This document shows, one piece after another, positions 55,711 to 60,354 of a stretch of DNA of 64,000 bases; position 1 is the first letter of the stretch; every line of letters begins with the position of its first letter. The notes beneath the pieces were generated by a model that was not told the DNA's origin, did not search any database, and was given only the letters and a program-made list of their open reading frames with translations. The position numbers and the translations under genes are program-made. Origin of the DNA: Fibrobacter sp. UWB5 (GTDB taxonomy: Bacteria; Fibrobacterota; Fibrobacteria; Fibrobacterales; Fibrobacteraceae); NCBI RefSeq assembly GCF_002210295.1, contig NZ_MWQH01000001.1, positions 806,001 to 870,000 on the forward strand. The letters are read 5' to 3'.

Positions 55711-55814
55711 AAACCCTCTTTTTAAAATAAAAAGGAACAAGATAAACTATTATGTCAATATTTGTCTCTCAAAAAAGTATATATTTCAAAGTATGGGAAA
55801 TGCTGCGCTGACAT

Positions 55815-55904
55815 ATAAAACGAGGGTTCCCTTGCGGGAACCCTATTTAGTGCTAGTTTTTCAGCTTATTACTGGCGAAAAACCTCATTTCCTAAGTCAC
55901 TAAT
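55815..55904 (-). ncRNA. tracrRNA
   Basis: Read on the minus strand. The plus strand at 55872-55897 carries CTGGCGAAA, a 2-base insertion, then CCTCATTTCCTAAGT. This equals the 5' 24 bases of the crRNA repeat apart from the 2-base bulge. On the minus RNA the anti-repeat thus comes first, then a weak nexus-like hairpin (GCT...AGC), then GGGTTCCC-GCAA-GGGAACCC and CGTTTTAT, a terminator. The predicted transcript is about 90 bases. A consensus promoter lies upstream (55911-55939). It is transcribed away from cas9. Confidence 0.88.
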
Positions 55905-55910
55905 GACCAT

Positions 55911-55939
55911 ATTATAATATTTTTATTTGCAAAAGTCAA
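55911..55939 (-). promoter_or_regulatory. Sigma-70 promoter of the tracrRNA gene
   Basis: Minus strand: -35 TTGACT (55934-55939), 17-base spacer, -10 TATAAT (55911-55916), predicted start near 55904. The -10 is part of the palindrome ATATTATAATAT, so the plus strand also has TATAAT (55913-55918) that may serve cas9, but without a good -35. Confidence 0.82.
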
Positions 55940-55956
55940 TAGAAGGAGCAAATATA

Positions 55957-58900
55957 ATGGAGAAAAAACGTTATCGTTTAGGAATAGATCTCGGAACGGC
56001 CAGTATTGGAACGGCCCTTGTCGAATTAGACGGTCCTGTAGATCATCCCTATCCCAAAAGCATCCTTCATATGGGCGTTCGCATTTTTGATGATGGTCGT
56101 GACCCCAAAACAAAAGTTCCGCTCGGTGTCGCTCGTAGAATGGCGAAACAGAACCGAAAAATGCTTGATCGTTATTTAAGGCGTCGCAAACGCCTTATCG
56201 ATGCGCTTATCAAATTTAAAATTTGGCCGGCAGACGAAACTCAGCGTAAGTCGCTCTGTCTTTTAAATCCGTACGATATTAGGACTCGTGCTCTAGATGA
56301 AAAGATTTCTCTTGCTGAACTCGGAAGAGCAATTTTTCACCTAAACCAAAGACGCGGTTTTAAGAGCAATAGAAAAACAGATGGTGGAGAAGATGGAAAA
56401 ATCAGGCAAGCCGTAGCCAAACTCGAAGAAGTCTTCCAAAAAGAAGGTTGCCGCACATTAGGCGAATTTTATCAAAAAAGACTTGAAAAGGGACAATCTG
56501 TTCGAGCAAGGCTAGAAGGCGCTGGAGCAAAAGCGTCTTATCCGTTTTATCCATCTCGTCAAATGATTGAATGTGAATTTGATAAAATATGGGATAAACA
56601 AGTAGAATTTTATCCAGATGTTTTGACGGATGCCGCTAAAAAAGAAATTCGCTCGACACTCCTTTATCAGCGTCCGCTTAAACCCGCCAAACCGGGAAAA
56701 TGCTTCTTAGAACCTAGTGAAGATCGCGCCCCCATAGCAAGTCCTTATTTCCAACGCTTCCGGATTTTGCAAACTGTAAATGAATTAAGAATTATTAATC
56801 GCTATGGAGACCAGAGACCGCTTTCGCTTGATGAAAGAAATATTCTTTTAGAGGTTCTGTCTCAAAAGAAAGAACTGAAGTTCTCTGCTGCAAAGAAATT
56901 GCTGTCTTTGTCCAATTATGACCGATTTAGCATTCAAGACGAGCGACGCGACAAATTCCAAGGAGACCAAATTGCGGTTTTACTTGGCAACAAGAAATAT
57001 TTCGGCAAGAATTGGAAATTGCTGCCGCTAGAAAACCAAAATGCAGTGGTTGCAGAACTCATCAGCCAAGATGATTCTGAAGAACTCATTAAAACATTAT
57101 GTGCCTTCGGGCTTTCCAAAGAAGCCGCAGCGCAGTTGTCCGAAGAAACGCTTCCTACTGGATATGGTAGGCTTTCCGTTGCAGCCTTAAAGAAAATTGT
57201 CCCCTACCTTGAAGAATCTGTCATTACTTATTCTGAAGCGGCAACAAAAGCGGGCTATAACCACAGCGATAATTACACAGGTGAAATTTTCCATTATTTA
57301 CCATACTACGGAAAAGTTCTTGAAAATCGCGTAATGCGTGGTAGTGGCAACGAAGCAGACAATGATGAAGATCGATATGGCAAAGTTGGCAATCCTACGG
57401 TTCACATCGCGTTGAATCAGCTTCGCCGTGTTGTAAACTGCGTTATAAAACATTTTGGAGCACCGGAACAGATTGTCATTGAAGTTGCTCGCGATCTTAA
57501 GATGACGCAAGATGAGATAAAAGACTATAAAAAACATCTTGCTGAAAATGAAGAACGTAATGCACGTATAGACAAAGAATTGGAAAAACTAGGTCAAGCC
57601 ACTAACCGCGAAAATCGCGAACGCTATAAATTATGGGAAGAGTTGGCCGACAACCCGATGGATCGTTGCTGTCCTTATACAGGAGAGCGCATCGGTATCG
57701 AAAGACTCTTTACTGAAGAAGTGGAAATTGAACACATTCTGCCTTTTGCGCAGACCTATGACAATTCGCTTGCAAACAAGACCCTTTCGATGCGATTCGC
57801 CAATAGGCTTAAGCAAAATAGATCCCCGTATGAAGCGTTTGCAGAGCATTCCTACAATGGCGTTCTTCCATATCAAGAAATGCTGGATAGGCTTCCTCAA
57901 GATAAAGCTTGGATGAACAAGCGTTGGCGATTTGAAAAGGGCGCTTTAGATAGATACAACGAGGACGGTGATTTCCAAGCAAGGCAGTTAACAGATACTG
58001 CTTATGCTTCTCGCTTGGCGCTTGAATATCTCAAGTTTGTATGTCCCAAGGATTCTGTTTGGGCGATTCCGGGGCGACTGACATCTATGCTTAGGCGCCA
58101 ATGGGGTTTGAATGATATTATCGGCAGGGAATTGCCTGACGGCACTTTTGAAAAGAGTCGCGACCATCATGGACATCACGCTATAGATGCACTTGTCGTT
58201 GCAACGACAGATAGATCTCTATTGCAAAAAATGTCCAAAGCGACACAAGTTAATTGGGAACATCAGGAACGTGTCCTATCGCATATAGAACCGCCCTTCT
58301 TCGACATTTTCGATCAAGCCAGCGAAAGACTTTCCCGTTTAGTTGTTTCCCATAGGAAAGATCATGGGTTAGGTGGGGCCTTGCACAATGATACAGCCTA
58401 TGGAATTATAGGCGAATACAAGGATGGCGTAGTTTCTACGGTAAAGCACAAGGTTCCGATAACCGCTATCACGGGTTCCAATATTAACCAAATCCAAAAC
58501 GACTTTATCCGGAACAGCATTCAAAATTTGATTGCCGAATCGTCTTCTAAATCTTCTTTAGAAAACGCCATCAACGAGTACTCTAACAAAACTGGTATTC
58601 GTAGGGTAACTCTTGTAGAAAAGCTTTCTGTCGTGCCCATAAAAAATAAAAAGGGCCAAATATATAAGGCTTTCAAACCCGATGGTAATTACTGCTATGA
58701 TATTTGGGCTAACGGAGATAAGTGGGACGGTAAAATTGTCAGTAGGTTTGAGGCCAACAATAATGGCGCGAAGAAACATGATAATCTGCTAATGAGAATT
58801 TTTGTAGGGGACACTCTTTGCTGTGAAATAGAGAATAAGAAAAAGCTGTACCATATCCTTGGGATAACCGATGGAAAAATCACGATGGTTGAACATTTTG

Positions 58901-59052
58901 AAGCCGGAAACTTAAGAGAACGAGACCGTGATAAGAAAGATTATCTCAAATATGTCTTTAAAACACCAAATACATTAAAGCCTCTAAAAGCCCGAATCGT
59001 TCATGTAGATGAATGTGGCTTTGTGTACGACCCTGGATTTAAGGAAAAATGA
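55957..59052 (+). CDS. cas9: CRISPR-associated endonuclease Cas9 (compact, type II-C-like)
   Basis: A 1031-residue Cas9, RNA-guided DNA nuclease. Start at 55957 with AGAAGGAG eight bases before. RuvC-I: YRLGIDLGTASIG with Asp11; bridge helix ARRMAKQNRKMLDRYLRRRK; RuvC-II: IVIEVARDLKM with Glu509; HNH: EVEIEHILPFAQTYDNSLANKT with His593 and Asn607; RuvC-III: HHGHHAIDALVV with His741 and Asp744. All catalytic residues are present, so both strands should be cut. The size, short REC lobe and lack of csn2/cas4 fit type II-C. There is no cas1 or cas2 on either side. The PAM-interacting C-terminal part (from about 830) is present to a normal end (YDPGFKEK). A+T content and codon use are richer in A/T than neighbours, consistent with horizontal gain. 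Confidence 0.97.
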   Translation: MEKKRYRLGIDLGTASIGTALVELDGPVDHPYPKSILHMGVRIFDDGRDPKTKVPLGVARRMAKQNRKMLDRYLRRRKRLIDALIKFKIWPADETQRKSLCLLNPYDIRTRALDEKISLAELGRAIFHLNQRRGFKSNRKTDGGEDGKIRQAVAKLEEVFQKEGCRTLGEFYQKRLEKGQSVRARLEGAGAKASYPFYPSRQMIECEFDKIWDKQVEFYPDVLTDAAKKEIRSTLLYQRPLKPAKPGKCFLEPSEDRAPIASPYFQRFRILQTVNELRIINRYGDQRPLSLDERNILLEVLSQKKELKFSAAKKLLSLSNYDRFSIQDERRDKFQGDQIAVLLGNKKYFGKNWKLLPLENQNAVVAELISQDDSEELIKTLCAFGLSKEAAAQLSEETLPTGYGRLSVAALKKIVPYLEESVITYSEAATKAGYNHSDNYTGEIFHYLPYYGKVLENRVMRGSGNEADNDEDRYGKVGNPTVHIALNQLRRVVNCVIKHFGAPEQIVIEVARDLKMTQDEIKDYKKHLAENEERNARIDKELEKLGQATNRENRERYKLWEELADNPMDRCCPYTGERIGIERLFTEEVEIEHILPFAQTYDNSLANKTLSMRFANRLKQNRSPYEAFAEHSYNGVLPYQEMLDRLPQDKAWMNKRWRFEKGALDRYNEDGDFQARQLTDTAYASRLALEYLKFVCPKDSVWAIPGRLTSMLRRQWGLNDIIGRELPDGTFEKSRDHHGHHAIDALVVATTDRSLLQKMSKATQVNWEHQERVLSHIEPPFFDIFDQASERLSRLVVSHRKDHGLGGALHNDTAYGIIGEYKDGVVSTVKHKVPITAITGSNINQIQNDFIRNSIQNLIAESSSKSSLENAINEYSNKTGIRRVTLVEKLSVVPIKNKKGQIYKAFKPDGNYCYDIWANGDKWDGKIVSRFEANNNGAKKHDNLLMRIFVGDTLCCEIENKKKLYHILGITDGKITMVEHFEAGNLRERDRDKKDYLKYVFKTPNTLKPLKARIVHVDECGFVYDPGFKEK

Positions 59053-59149
59053 TTGGCAGAATTCTAGAAATAGGAACTCCAGGAAAGTTTTTAAAACTTT
59101 TTCGTGGGTTCTGCATTATACCTTAGCCAGTGGGGCGGTGCGACAACCC

Positions 59150-59779
59150 AATATAGAAACTTAGGAAAAGAGGTTTCGCCAGAACATGTTCGGCAAGTCC
59201 GCACGGTGGGCCGAAAATATAGAAACTTAGGAAATGAGGTTTCGCCAGAACCAGCGTCTTGAGCGTGCGGTCAACGGCCTTAATATAGAAACTTAGGAAA
59301 AGAGGCTTCGCCAGAACCCGTGTGTTCGCCTGCAAGGGCCGTGGCAAAATATAGAAACTTAGGAAAAGAGGTTTCGCCAGAACTCCAGCGTGTTCTTCCT
59401 CGGCGGGGGTTCTAATATAGAAACTTAGGAAATGAGGTTTCGCCAGAACGAAGTCTTGCCATTTGTCATATTCGGCTGCAATATAGAAACTTAGGAAATG
59501 AGGTTTCGCCAGAACCCTACTTCTCAAGGTCGTATGACTGTCAAGAATATAGAAACTTAGGAAATGAGGTTTCGCCAGAACAGGTATTCCATCACCTTGA
59601 TGGTTTCAAGCAATATAGAAACTTAGGAAATGAGGTTTCGCCAGAACGACAATCCGTTCCAATCGCAGCGTGCTATTAATATAGAAACTTAGGAAATGAG
59701 GTTTCGCCAGAACGTTGTACATTACGCCACGTATGCTATGCCGAATATAGAAACTTAGGAAATAAAGTTTATTTATATG
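59150..59779 (-). CRISPR. CRISPR array: 10 repeats of 36 bp, 9 spacers of 30 bp
   Basis: Repeats begin at 59150, 59216, 59282, 59348, 59414, 59480, 59546, 59612, 59678 and 59744; all spacers are exactly 30 bp. The repeat in the crRNA sense (minus) begins GTTCTGGCGAAACC and ends TTCCTAAGTTTCTATATT. Repeats at 59150, 59282 and 59348 carry A for T at position 20 on the plus strand (GGAAAAGAGG), and 59282 has one more change. The last repeat (59744) keeps the first 20 bases of the plus-strand consensus and diverges beyond. Strand is set by pairing with the tracrRNA. No leader is seen at either end. Between cas9 and the array (59053-59149) there is only a weak AAAGTTTT/AAAACTTT hairpin. Confidence 0.97.
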
Positions 59780-59895
59780 CGACGAAATTGTCGGCTATTG
59801 TAAAATTTCATTACGCCCCTTGCCAGCTTTTTGAATGTTAGGTACATTCATGCCCGACGCGATTCTCTGTTGAATGGAGAACCGCGTCTTTTTTA
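59780..59895 (+). ncRNA. Possible structured small RNA ending in a strong terminator
   Basis: Directly after the array: hairpin CGAC/GTCG (59782-59794), hairpin GAATGT/ACATTC (59833-59849), then a 12-position stem GACGCGATTCTC/GAGAACCGCGTC with one mismatch and T6 (59856-59894). No ORF ends shortly before this terminator on the plus strand, so it must end either a small RNA or read-through of the array. No clear promoter was found. Confidence 0.35.
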
Positions 59896-59905
59896 TTCTG
59901 AGATT

Positions 59906-59974
59906 TCAGGATAATAGGACGCCTCTAACATCAATCAGTCGCAAATTGCGGCTAATGGAGGCTGAAAATCCTGA
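59906..59974 (+). promoter_or_regulatory. Nested stems enclosing the ribosome binding site of the XRE gene
   Basis: Three nested inverted repeats: TCAGGAT/ATCCTGA (59906-59912 with 59968-59974), GCCTC/GAGGC (59921-59925 with 59958-59962) and CGCAA/TTGCG (59940-59944 with 59946-59950). The second stem contains the GGAGG that is the only good ribosome binding site before the ATG at 59977. Confidence 0.55.
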
Positions 59975-59976
59975 TT

Positions 59977-60354
59977 ATGAAAGAAAAAATTGACAAGTTT
60001 GAAGGCGAACAGATTCCTGATTTCGTTTTAGGGATGCTCAAGTACATGTTTCCGAAATGCGTCAAGGTTTACGATACTCCGACCAAGAAGCGTCATGATA
60101 AGGATGAAGAGTCGGTTGAGCTTGAAAGCTCCGATTGGTACAAGAAGATGTCTGCGGAGATGACTCCGGGCAAGGCAATTCGTGCCGATCGTGGACTCCG
60201 CGGCTGGACACAGAATGTCCTCGCGCAAAAGCTCGGTATCTCTATTCAGAATCTATCGGCGATGGAACATGACCGCCGCCCAGTATCTAAGAAAATGGCT
60301 GCGAAGCTGTCTCTGGTTTTCGGAGTCCCGCCCGAAACGTATTTCAAATTTTGA
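59977..60354 (+). CDS. XRE-family helix-turn-helix regulator
   Basis: A 125-residue protein. The C-terminal 65 residues are an HTH_3 domain: GKAIRADRGLRGWTQNVLAQKLGISIQNLSAMEHDRRPVSKKMAAKLSLVFG. The N-terminal about 55 residues (EGEQIPDFVLGMLKYMFPKCVKVYDT) are not recognised and could contact a partner. No toxin gene lies next to it, so a complete toxin-antitoxin pair is not seen; some XRE antitoxins are encoded alone. It follows the CRISPR array by 200 bases. The distance from GGAGG to ATG is long (15 bases). Confidence 0.82.
   Translation: MKEKIDKFEGEQIPDFVLGMLKYMFPKCVKVYDTPTKKRHDKDEESVELESSDWYKKMSAEMTPGKAIRADRGLRGWTQNVLAQKLGISIQNLSAMEHDRRPVSKKMAAKLSLVFGVPPETYFKF

Follow-up and report, generated by a model that had tools for sequence, protein, structure and literature searches.

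The DNA analysed here, a stretch of 64,000 nucleotides from Fibrobacter sp. UWB5 (the window), carries a compact CRISPR-Cas9 locus (clustered regularly interspaced short palindromic repeats and associated genes) between positions 55815 and 59779. The locus contains a gene for trans-activating CRISPR RNA (tracrRNA), a cas9 gene, a remnant of cas1, and an array from which CRISPR RNAs (crRNAs) are read. The repeats (R1 to R10) and spacers (W0 to W9) of the array are numbered from the cas9 side. The nearest relative of the locus lies in Fibrobacter succinogenes RUG10752, a metagenome-assembled genome (G087; contig CACWNW010000009.1, 85,837 bp), and the strain's own genome is called G000. The features of the locus are as follows.

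55815-55905, minus strand: tracrRNA gene, with the anti-repeat at its 5' end, then a tail and a terminator hairpin; conserved in G087
55957-59052, plus strand: cas9 (type II), matching TIGR01865, its product 83% identical to G087 Cas9, catalytic residues intact
59049-59120, plus strand: cas1 stub, the first 24 codons, overlapping the cas9 stop as in G087
59119-59120, no strand: deletion junction, where the cas1 interior meets the border of spacer W0, with at most one shared base (A)
59120-59149, minus strand: W0, read as the tenth and newest spacer, self-targeting (30/30 self-match) and without a 3' repeat
59150-59743, minus strand: array proper, repeats R1-R9 and spacers W1-W9 (all 30 nt), crRNAs from the minus strand
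59186-59215, minus strand: spacer W1, matching a ParB-like gene in genome G088 at 30/30 positions
59744-59779, minus strand: R10, the oldest, degenerate repeat, with a duplex energy of -26.4 kcal/mol

The cas9 gene is intact from its ATG to its stop codon and encodes a protein of 1031 amino acids. In a profile search this protein matched TIGR01865 (cas_Csn1) with 630.7 bits (E 5.9e-189), and motif positions together with an alignment to solved Cas9s place the RuvC and HNH catalytic residues at D11, E509, H593, N616, H741 and D744. A Cas9 effector with these residues is one mark of a type II system, and a tracrRNA complementary to the repeat is another. The tracrRNA gene is divergent from cas9. 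Its anti-repeat, at 55880-55902 on the minus strand, is complementary to the array repeats and forms duplexes of -39 to -43 kcal/mol with R1-R9, and its terminator is a hairpin (GGGTTCCCGCAAGGGAACCC) followed by a T run (a U run in the RNA). The tracrRNA fold has a z score of -4.2. A previous interpretation made from the letters alone (the sequence-only reading) had placed a full-length Cas9 with six catalytic residues, a tracrRNA gene and a ten-repeat array together at this locus, and profile search, alignment, folding and repeat spacing confirm it. Residue 592, which precedes the HNH catalytic histidine, is Asp in solved Cas9s and Glu (E592) in the Cas9 of both the window and G087.

The array consists of ten 36-nt repeats with an exact spacing of 66 nt from 59150 to 59779, which is far above chance expectation. 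Its spacers are strictly 30 nt long, as the sequence-only reading had stated. That reading counted nine of them; there are ten, since W0 lies outside the first repeat and was overlooked. The anti-repeat is on the minus strand, and therefore the crRNAs are also read from the minus strand and run towards cas9; the array is convergent with cas9. A type II crRNA consists of a spacer followed by its repeat, and transcription of a II-C array starts at the end opposite to the entry of new spacers. Entry at the cas2 end is documented as the polarity of II-C arrays (PMC12080349). Degenerate repeats occupy the array end far from the cas9 side in the window as well as in G087, and R10 has kept the half adjoining spacer W9 and lost the crRNA handle half. 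These repeats and the orientation of the tracrRNA point to transcription towards the leader with the oldest, often mutated, repeat first, which would be the II-C arrangement. The compact Cas9 also agrees with II-C, as does the lack of csn2 (II-A) and cas4 (II-B), for which no genome-wide search was made; the G087 operon is made up of cas9, cas1 and cas2 alone. A II-C locus also has cas1 and cas2 beside cas9, and here a 24-codon cas1 stub alone is left. Judged by its sequence, the window locus is II-C by descent and incomplete by content. Within the array, R1 (59150), R3 (59282) and R4 (59348) carry an identical base change, with a second change in R3. R2, in between, is without it, an odd mosaic for an array that grows from one end.

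No intact cas1 or cas2 is present in the window, as the sequence-only reading had noted, and this absence extends to the whole 3.36-Mb genome (17 contigs, rated 100% complete). A search of that genome with cas1 (PF01867) and cas2 (PF09827) profiles gave nothing above threshold, while control genomes gave matches. The search included the sequence just outside the window, had been set beforehand as the refuting test, and found no intact copy. Among the 111 Fibrobacteraceae genomes compared, one per species, 17 have a Cas9 match. In all 16 of the others a cas1 match lies on the same contig as cas9; only the UWB5 genome is without one.

The G087 locus has the order cas9-cas1-cas2-leader-array. Its cas1 (306 amino acids) and cas2 (110 amino acids) products find their best matches in Cas1_II and Cas2_II. 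Its array has 30 repeats, 28 identical and 2 degenerate, with the same consensus as the window repeat, and spacers of 29-31 nt as compared with the uniform 30 nt in the window. The numbering of the G087 spacers shifts between scans, the second of which caught more degenerate repeats; their sequences are unchanged. The two loci are alike in repeat, tracrRNA, Cas9 and gene order up to cas1, whereas the G087 locus keeps cas1, cas2, the leader and its 30 repeats and has other chromosomal neighbours. The earlier proposal that a proper integrase made the spacers holds for the time before the deletion, since both adaptation genes are still present in the sister locus. The same repeat also occurs in genome G068 (G068:C35, L100, 17800-19903), in an array adjoining a gene that also follows the G087 array, which suggests a shared insertion site in these two genomes.

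In the window, as in G087, cas1 starts inside the cas9 stop codon. The reading frame of the stub, MIGRILEIGTPGKFLKLFRGFCII, is identical to G087 Cas1 in 24 of 24 amino acids. After the stub, cas1 homology stops at the spacer border, where the sequence turns into ACCTTAGCCAGTGGGGCGGTGCGACAACCC and then R1. Apart from the stub, the genome contains no homology to cas1. In G087 coordinates, the deleted span measures 1251 bp and corresponds to the rest of cas1, cas2 and the leader, up to the first repeat. Read against the G087 locus, a single deletion removed everything in cas1 beyond codon 24 together with the whole of cas2 and the leader, and no repeat is left on the leader side of W0. The description of the locus as lacking cas1 therefore holds for an intact gene but not for the 24-codon fragment. 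Of the two fates that the sequence-only reading had offered for the array, fed from elsewhere or frozen, the second stands, given a genome without adaptation genes, a cas1 stub in place and a lost leader; the first is not supported. On its cas1 side the joint agrees with a repeat border at 5-6 of 12 bases, a level met by 7-21% of the region's sites, and we do not regard this repeat-like sequence as striking.

The age of the deletion can be gauged from the stub. Between window and G087, synonymous sites of cas9 are saturated (p = 0.76) and nonsynonymous divergence (dN) is 0.11. Differences in the stub number 4 at synonymous sites and none among its 55.7 nonsynonymous sites, for which we calculate a 95% upper bound of about 0.054 nonsynonymous changes per site. 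In a stub long released from selection, nonsynonymous changes would be expected. The deletion is therefore recent relative to the split from G087.

Spacer W0 matches the strain's own chromosome at G000:C4:16179-16208 (minus strand). The match covers exactly 30 positions and ends exactly at R1, and a full match to the own genome makes W0 a self-targeting spacer. Its target is unmutated and lies inside a gene of 781 amino acids with a Big_7 domain, the sequence of which is common to many relatives. The exact spacer length, the exact abutment on R1 and the position on the cas2 side lead us to read W0 as the newest spacer. Templated filler DNA introduced at a random deletion was considered and ruled out by the exact length and the abutment on an intact repeat border. 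The handle repeat of W0 would occupy 59084-59119, and the cas1 stub is there instead. The RNA flanking W0 pairs with the anti-repeat at -8.6 kcal/mol; the shuffled mean is -9.2, and R1-R9 reach the values given above. W0 is predicted to be disarmed because a II-C crRNA takes its handle from the leader-side repeat, now gone. We infer that W0 cannot become a working crRNA, and that W1-W9, which keep their handles, can. The sequence-only reading had noticed neither the stub nor the self-match of W0 and its missing handle repeat; with the tenth spacer, these make up the main result.

The W0 target was also compared with other protospacers. W1 matches, in G088, a ParB-like gene with phage-type genes for ssb and an exonuclease next to it. 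The protospacer adjacent motif (PAM) was derived, as the sequence-only reading had proposed, from the 3' flanks of six protospacers: W0 (CGCGGCCC), W1 (CGCGCCGA), two G087 spacers (CGGAGTTT and GGGCCCGG), one G068 spacer (AGGAGTCC) and one G106 spacer with 4 mismatches (GGCAGCTA). All six flanks have G at position 2 and either G or C at position 3, giving an inferred PAM of N-G-S from a small sample. The W0 and W1 targets share the flank CGCG. The W0 target looks legitimate, as its flank fits a PAM drawn from few cases. In the search against phages and plasmids, also proposed earlier, the array spacers gave no convincing match, and a scan of the PAM-proximal 20-mers of W2-W8 in IMG/VR gave a single match, to W7, which we take as chance since it covers little beyond 20 nt. 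A match of W3 in the own genome (G000:C5) with 5 mismatches was judged too weak. Two different G087 spacers have matches in G081:C32 (L111, L115), separated by about 7 kb and close to a minor-tail-like gene, and this region is probably a prophage.

We consider it likely that a II-C locus has here been turned into an interference-only system, with adaptation deleted, W0 silenced and the older guides spared. Sequence comparison shows that it descends from a normal cas9-cas1-cas2-leader-array locus, and W0 is a copy of the cell's own chromosome. A single deletion removed adaptation and would at the same time have disarmed the self-targeting guide, as the tracrRNA handle of the newest II-C spacer comes from the leader-side repeat and, without that repeat, W0 would yield no working crRNA. 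The Cas9 system can probably still cut. With its catalytic residues and older guides in place, it would still cut old invaders (W1 is directed at a phage-like region), would not record new ones and would not attack itself. Several points weigh against this view or limit it. The species is represented by one genome, and the state before the deletion is known only from the loci of relatives. Apart from W0, the PAM rests on five protospacers, one of which has 4 mismatches. The single-base departures from the consensus in R1, R3 and R4 indicate some repeat drift, which makes the age of the deletion uncertain, and a deletion in a HigB-like toxin gene at about 59994 indicates that unrelated deletions occur at this spot.

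How the deletion arose can be explained in several ways, and we think that the deletion and the self-spacer are linked rather than coincidental. The origin that we prefer, if tentatively, is a failed integration. Cas1-Cas2 would have joined W0 to the first repeat at its leader-side edge only, and repair would have attached the free end to a break within cas1, with the loss of cas1, cas2 and the leader. Type II Cas1-Cas2 gives mostly one-ended insertions in vitro (PMC8390005), and the structure of the joint agrees: W0 has its full 30 nt and is correctly joined to R1, the joint falls exactly on the spacer border, and no further repeat fragment is left. We estimate that a random break would fall on the border in about 2/66 of cases. 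On the other hand, the cas1 site resembles a repeat border weakly, and our literature search yielded no example of such a deletion. A possible but less probable origin is escape from autoimmunity, in which a normal insertion of W0 gave a crRNA that directed Cas9 against the chromosome, and the survivors had lost the handle repeat, leader, cas2 and cas1. The perfect chromosomal match, the PAM-like flank and the unmutated target favour escape, and cells are known to escape in this way through deletions in the array or the cas genes (PMC6990116). The self-match of W0 is expected under escape and failed integration alike. Selection, however, would tolerate breakpoints anywhere in the repeat or in the PAM-proximal part of the spacer, so that the exact border would be a coincidence, and losing Cas9 function would be easier. 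It is therefore the exact spacer-border joint that favours failed integration over escape.

It is rather unlikely that an ordinary illegitimate deletion took the adaptation module while the self-spacer, harmless through a wrong PAM or a silent Cas9, played no role. The separate toxin gene deletion 0.9 kb away and the loss of cas1-cas2 with cas9 kept elsewhere (PMC8743540) speak for such a coincidence, but chance would have to supply both the exact border and the self-match of the newest spacer. An assembly artefact, in which reads collapsed over the array and cas1-cas2 dropped out, is very improbable; the genome is a draft in 17 contigs and the array is repetitive, but cas1 and cas2 are unique sequences that would turn up elsewhere, and the two sides of the junction are different sequences within a contig of 1.03 Mb. 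We give still less credence to an array that remains active and is fed in trans by another CRISPR system. Adaptation in trans exists (PMC8092290), but with a genome free of cas1 and cas2 and an array free of a leader, assembly gaps would be its only refuge. If failed integration is the origin, then the CRISPR integrase may have deleted its own genes. A one-sided insertion repaired onto cas1 would have ended adaptation and left the self-spacer without a handle, and leader damage would selectively disarm the newest II-C memory, acting as a safety valve against autoimmunity. This wider proposal we put forward with slightly more reserve than the failed integration itself.

II-C Cas9 loci without cas1-cas2 are already known (PMC8743540, PMC8092290), and the absence itself is not new. 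CampyICE1 and environmental Campylobacter coli have a II-C Cas9 without adaptation genes, as in the window; theirs is an integrative element with three plasmid-aimed arrays, or an orphan cas9, and the parts of that report available to us contain no cas1 stub fused to a self-spacer (PMC8743540). The II-C locus of Flavobacterium branchiophilum likewise lacks cas1, but it is named merely as an exclusion and the route of the loss is not stated (PMC8092290). Self-targeting escape mutants resemble the window in that a self-matching spacer is made harmless by a deletion in the array or cas genes; they lose the spacer, the target or cas function, whereas the window keeps effector, target and spacer and loses the handle repeat, leader and adaptation genes (PMC6990116). 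Campylobacter jejuni PT14 also has self-derived new spacers in a II-C array, but there adaptation is active and the spacers lie between repeats (PMC4283603). In the open-access literature subset, we found no earlier example of a cas1 stub joined directly to a self-derived spacer that has lost its handle. The route by which Cas9 loci lost cas1-cas2 is rarely clear, and the scar in the window is fresh enough to read. Because its joint touches a self-derived spacer, the loss of adaptation can be tied to autoimmunity-prone acquisition, not slow decay. The II-C geometry predicts that leader-side damage silences the newest spacer alone and spares older immunity. The signature of such a junction, a full-length spacer that adjoins a piece of cas1 or of the leader without an intervening repeat, can be searched for in other genomes.

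The locus is a cassette in a variable spot. Genome G056 shares the right flank at 95% identity over 2.9 kb, and its copies of the left flank (to window position 55716) and right flank (from 59793) are separated by about 680 bp that hold no CRISPR locus; the G087 locus sits elsewhere. Positions 59793-59861 are shared at 94% with this empty site, and the stretch 59793-60000 and its surroundings are found again on contigs C2 and C14 of G000 and in many relatives. Further on, 59977-60354 holds a helix-turn-helix (HTH), antitoxin-like gene without a partner. In G037 (L160) the same gene is preceded by a HigB-like toxin gene, whereas in the window about 313 bp are missing, including most of the toxin gene, and the toxin's first codons continue into the frame of the antitoxin. 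Elsewhere in the family, in a different genus (G106:C9, L101, 170-4362), an array of 52 repeats, a 2-nt variant of the window repeat, is also followed by a HigB-like/HTH pair, and the array and the toxin-antitoxin pair may travel together.

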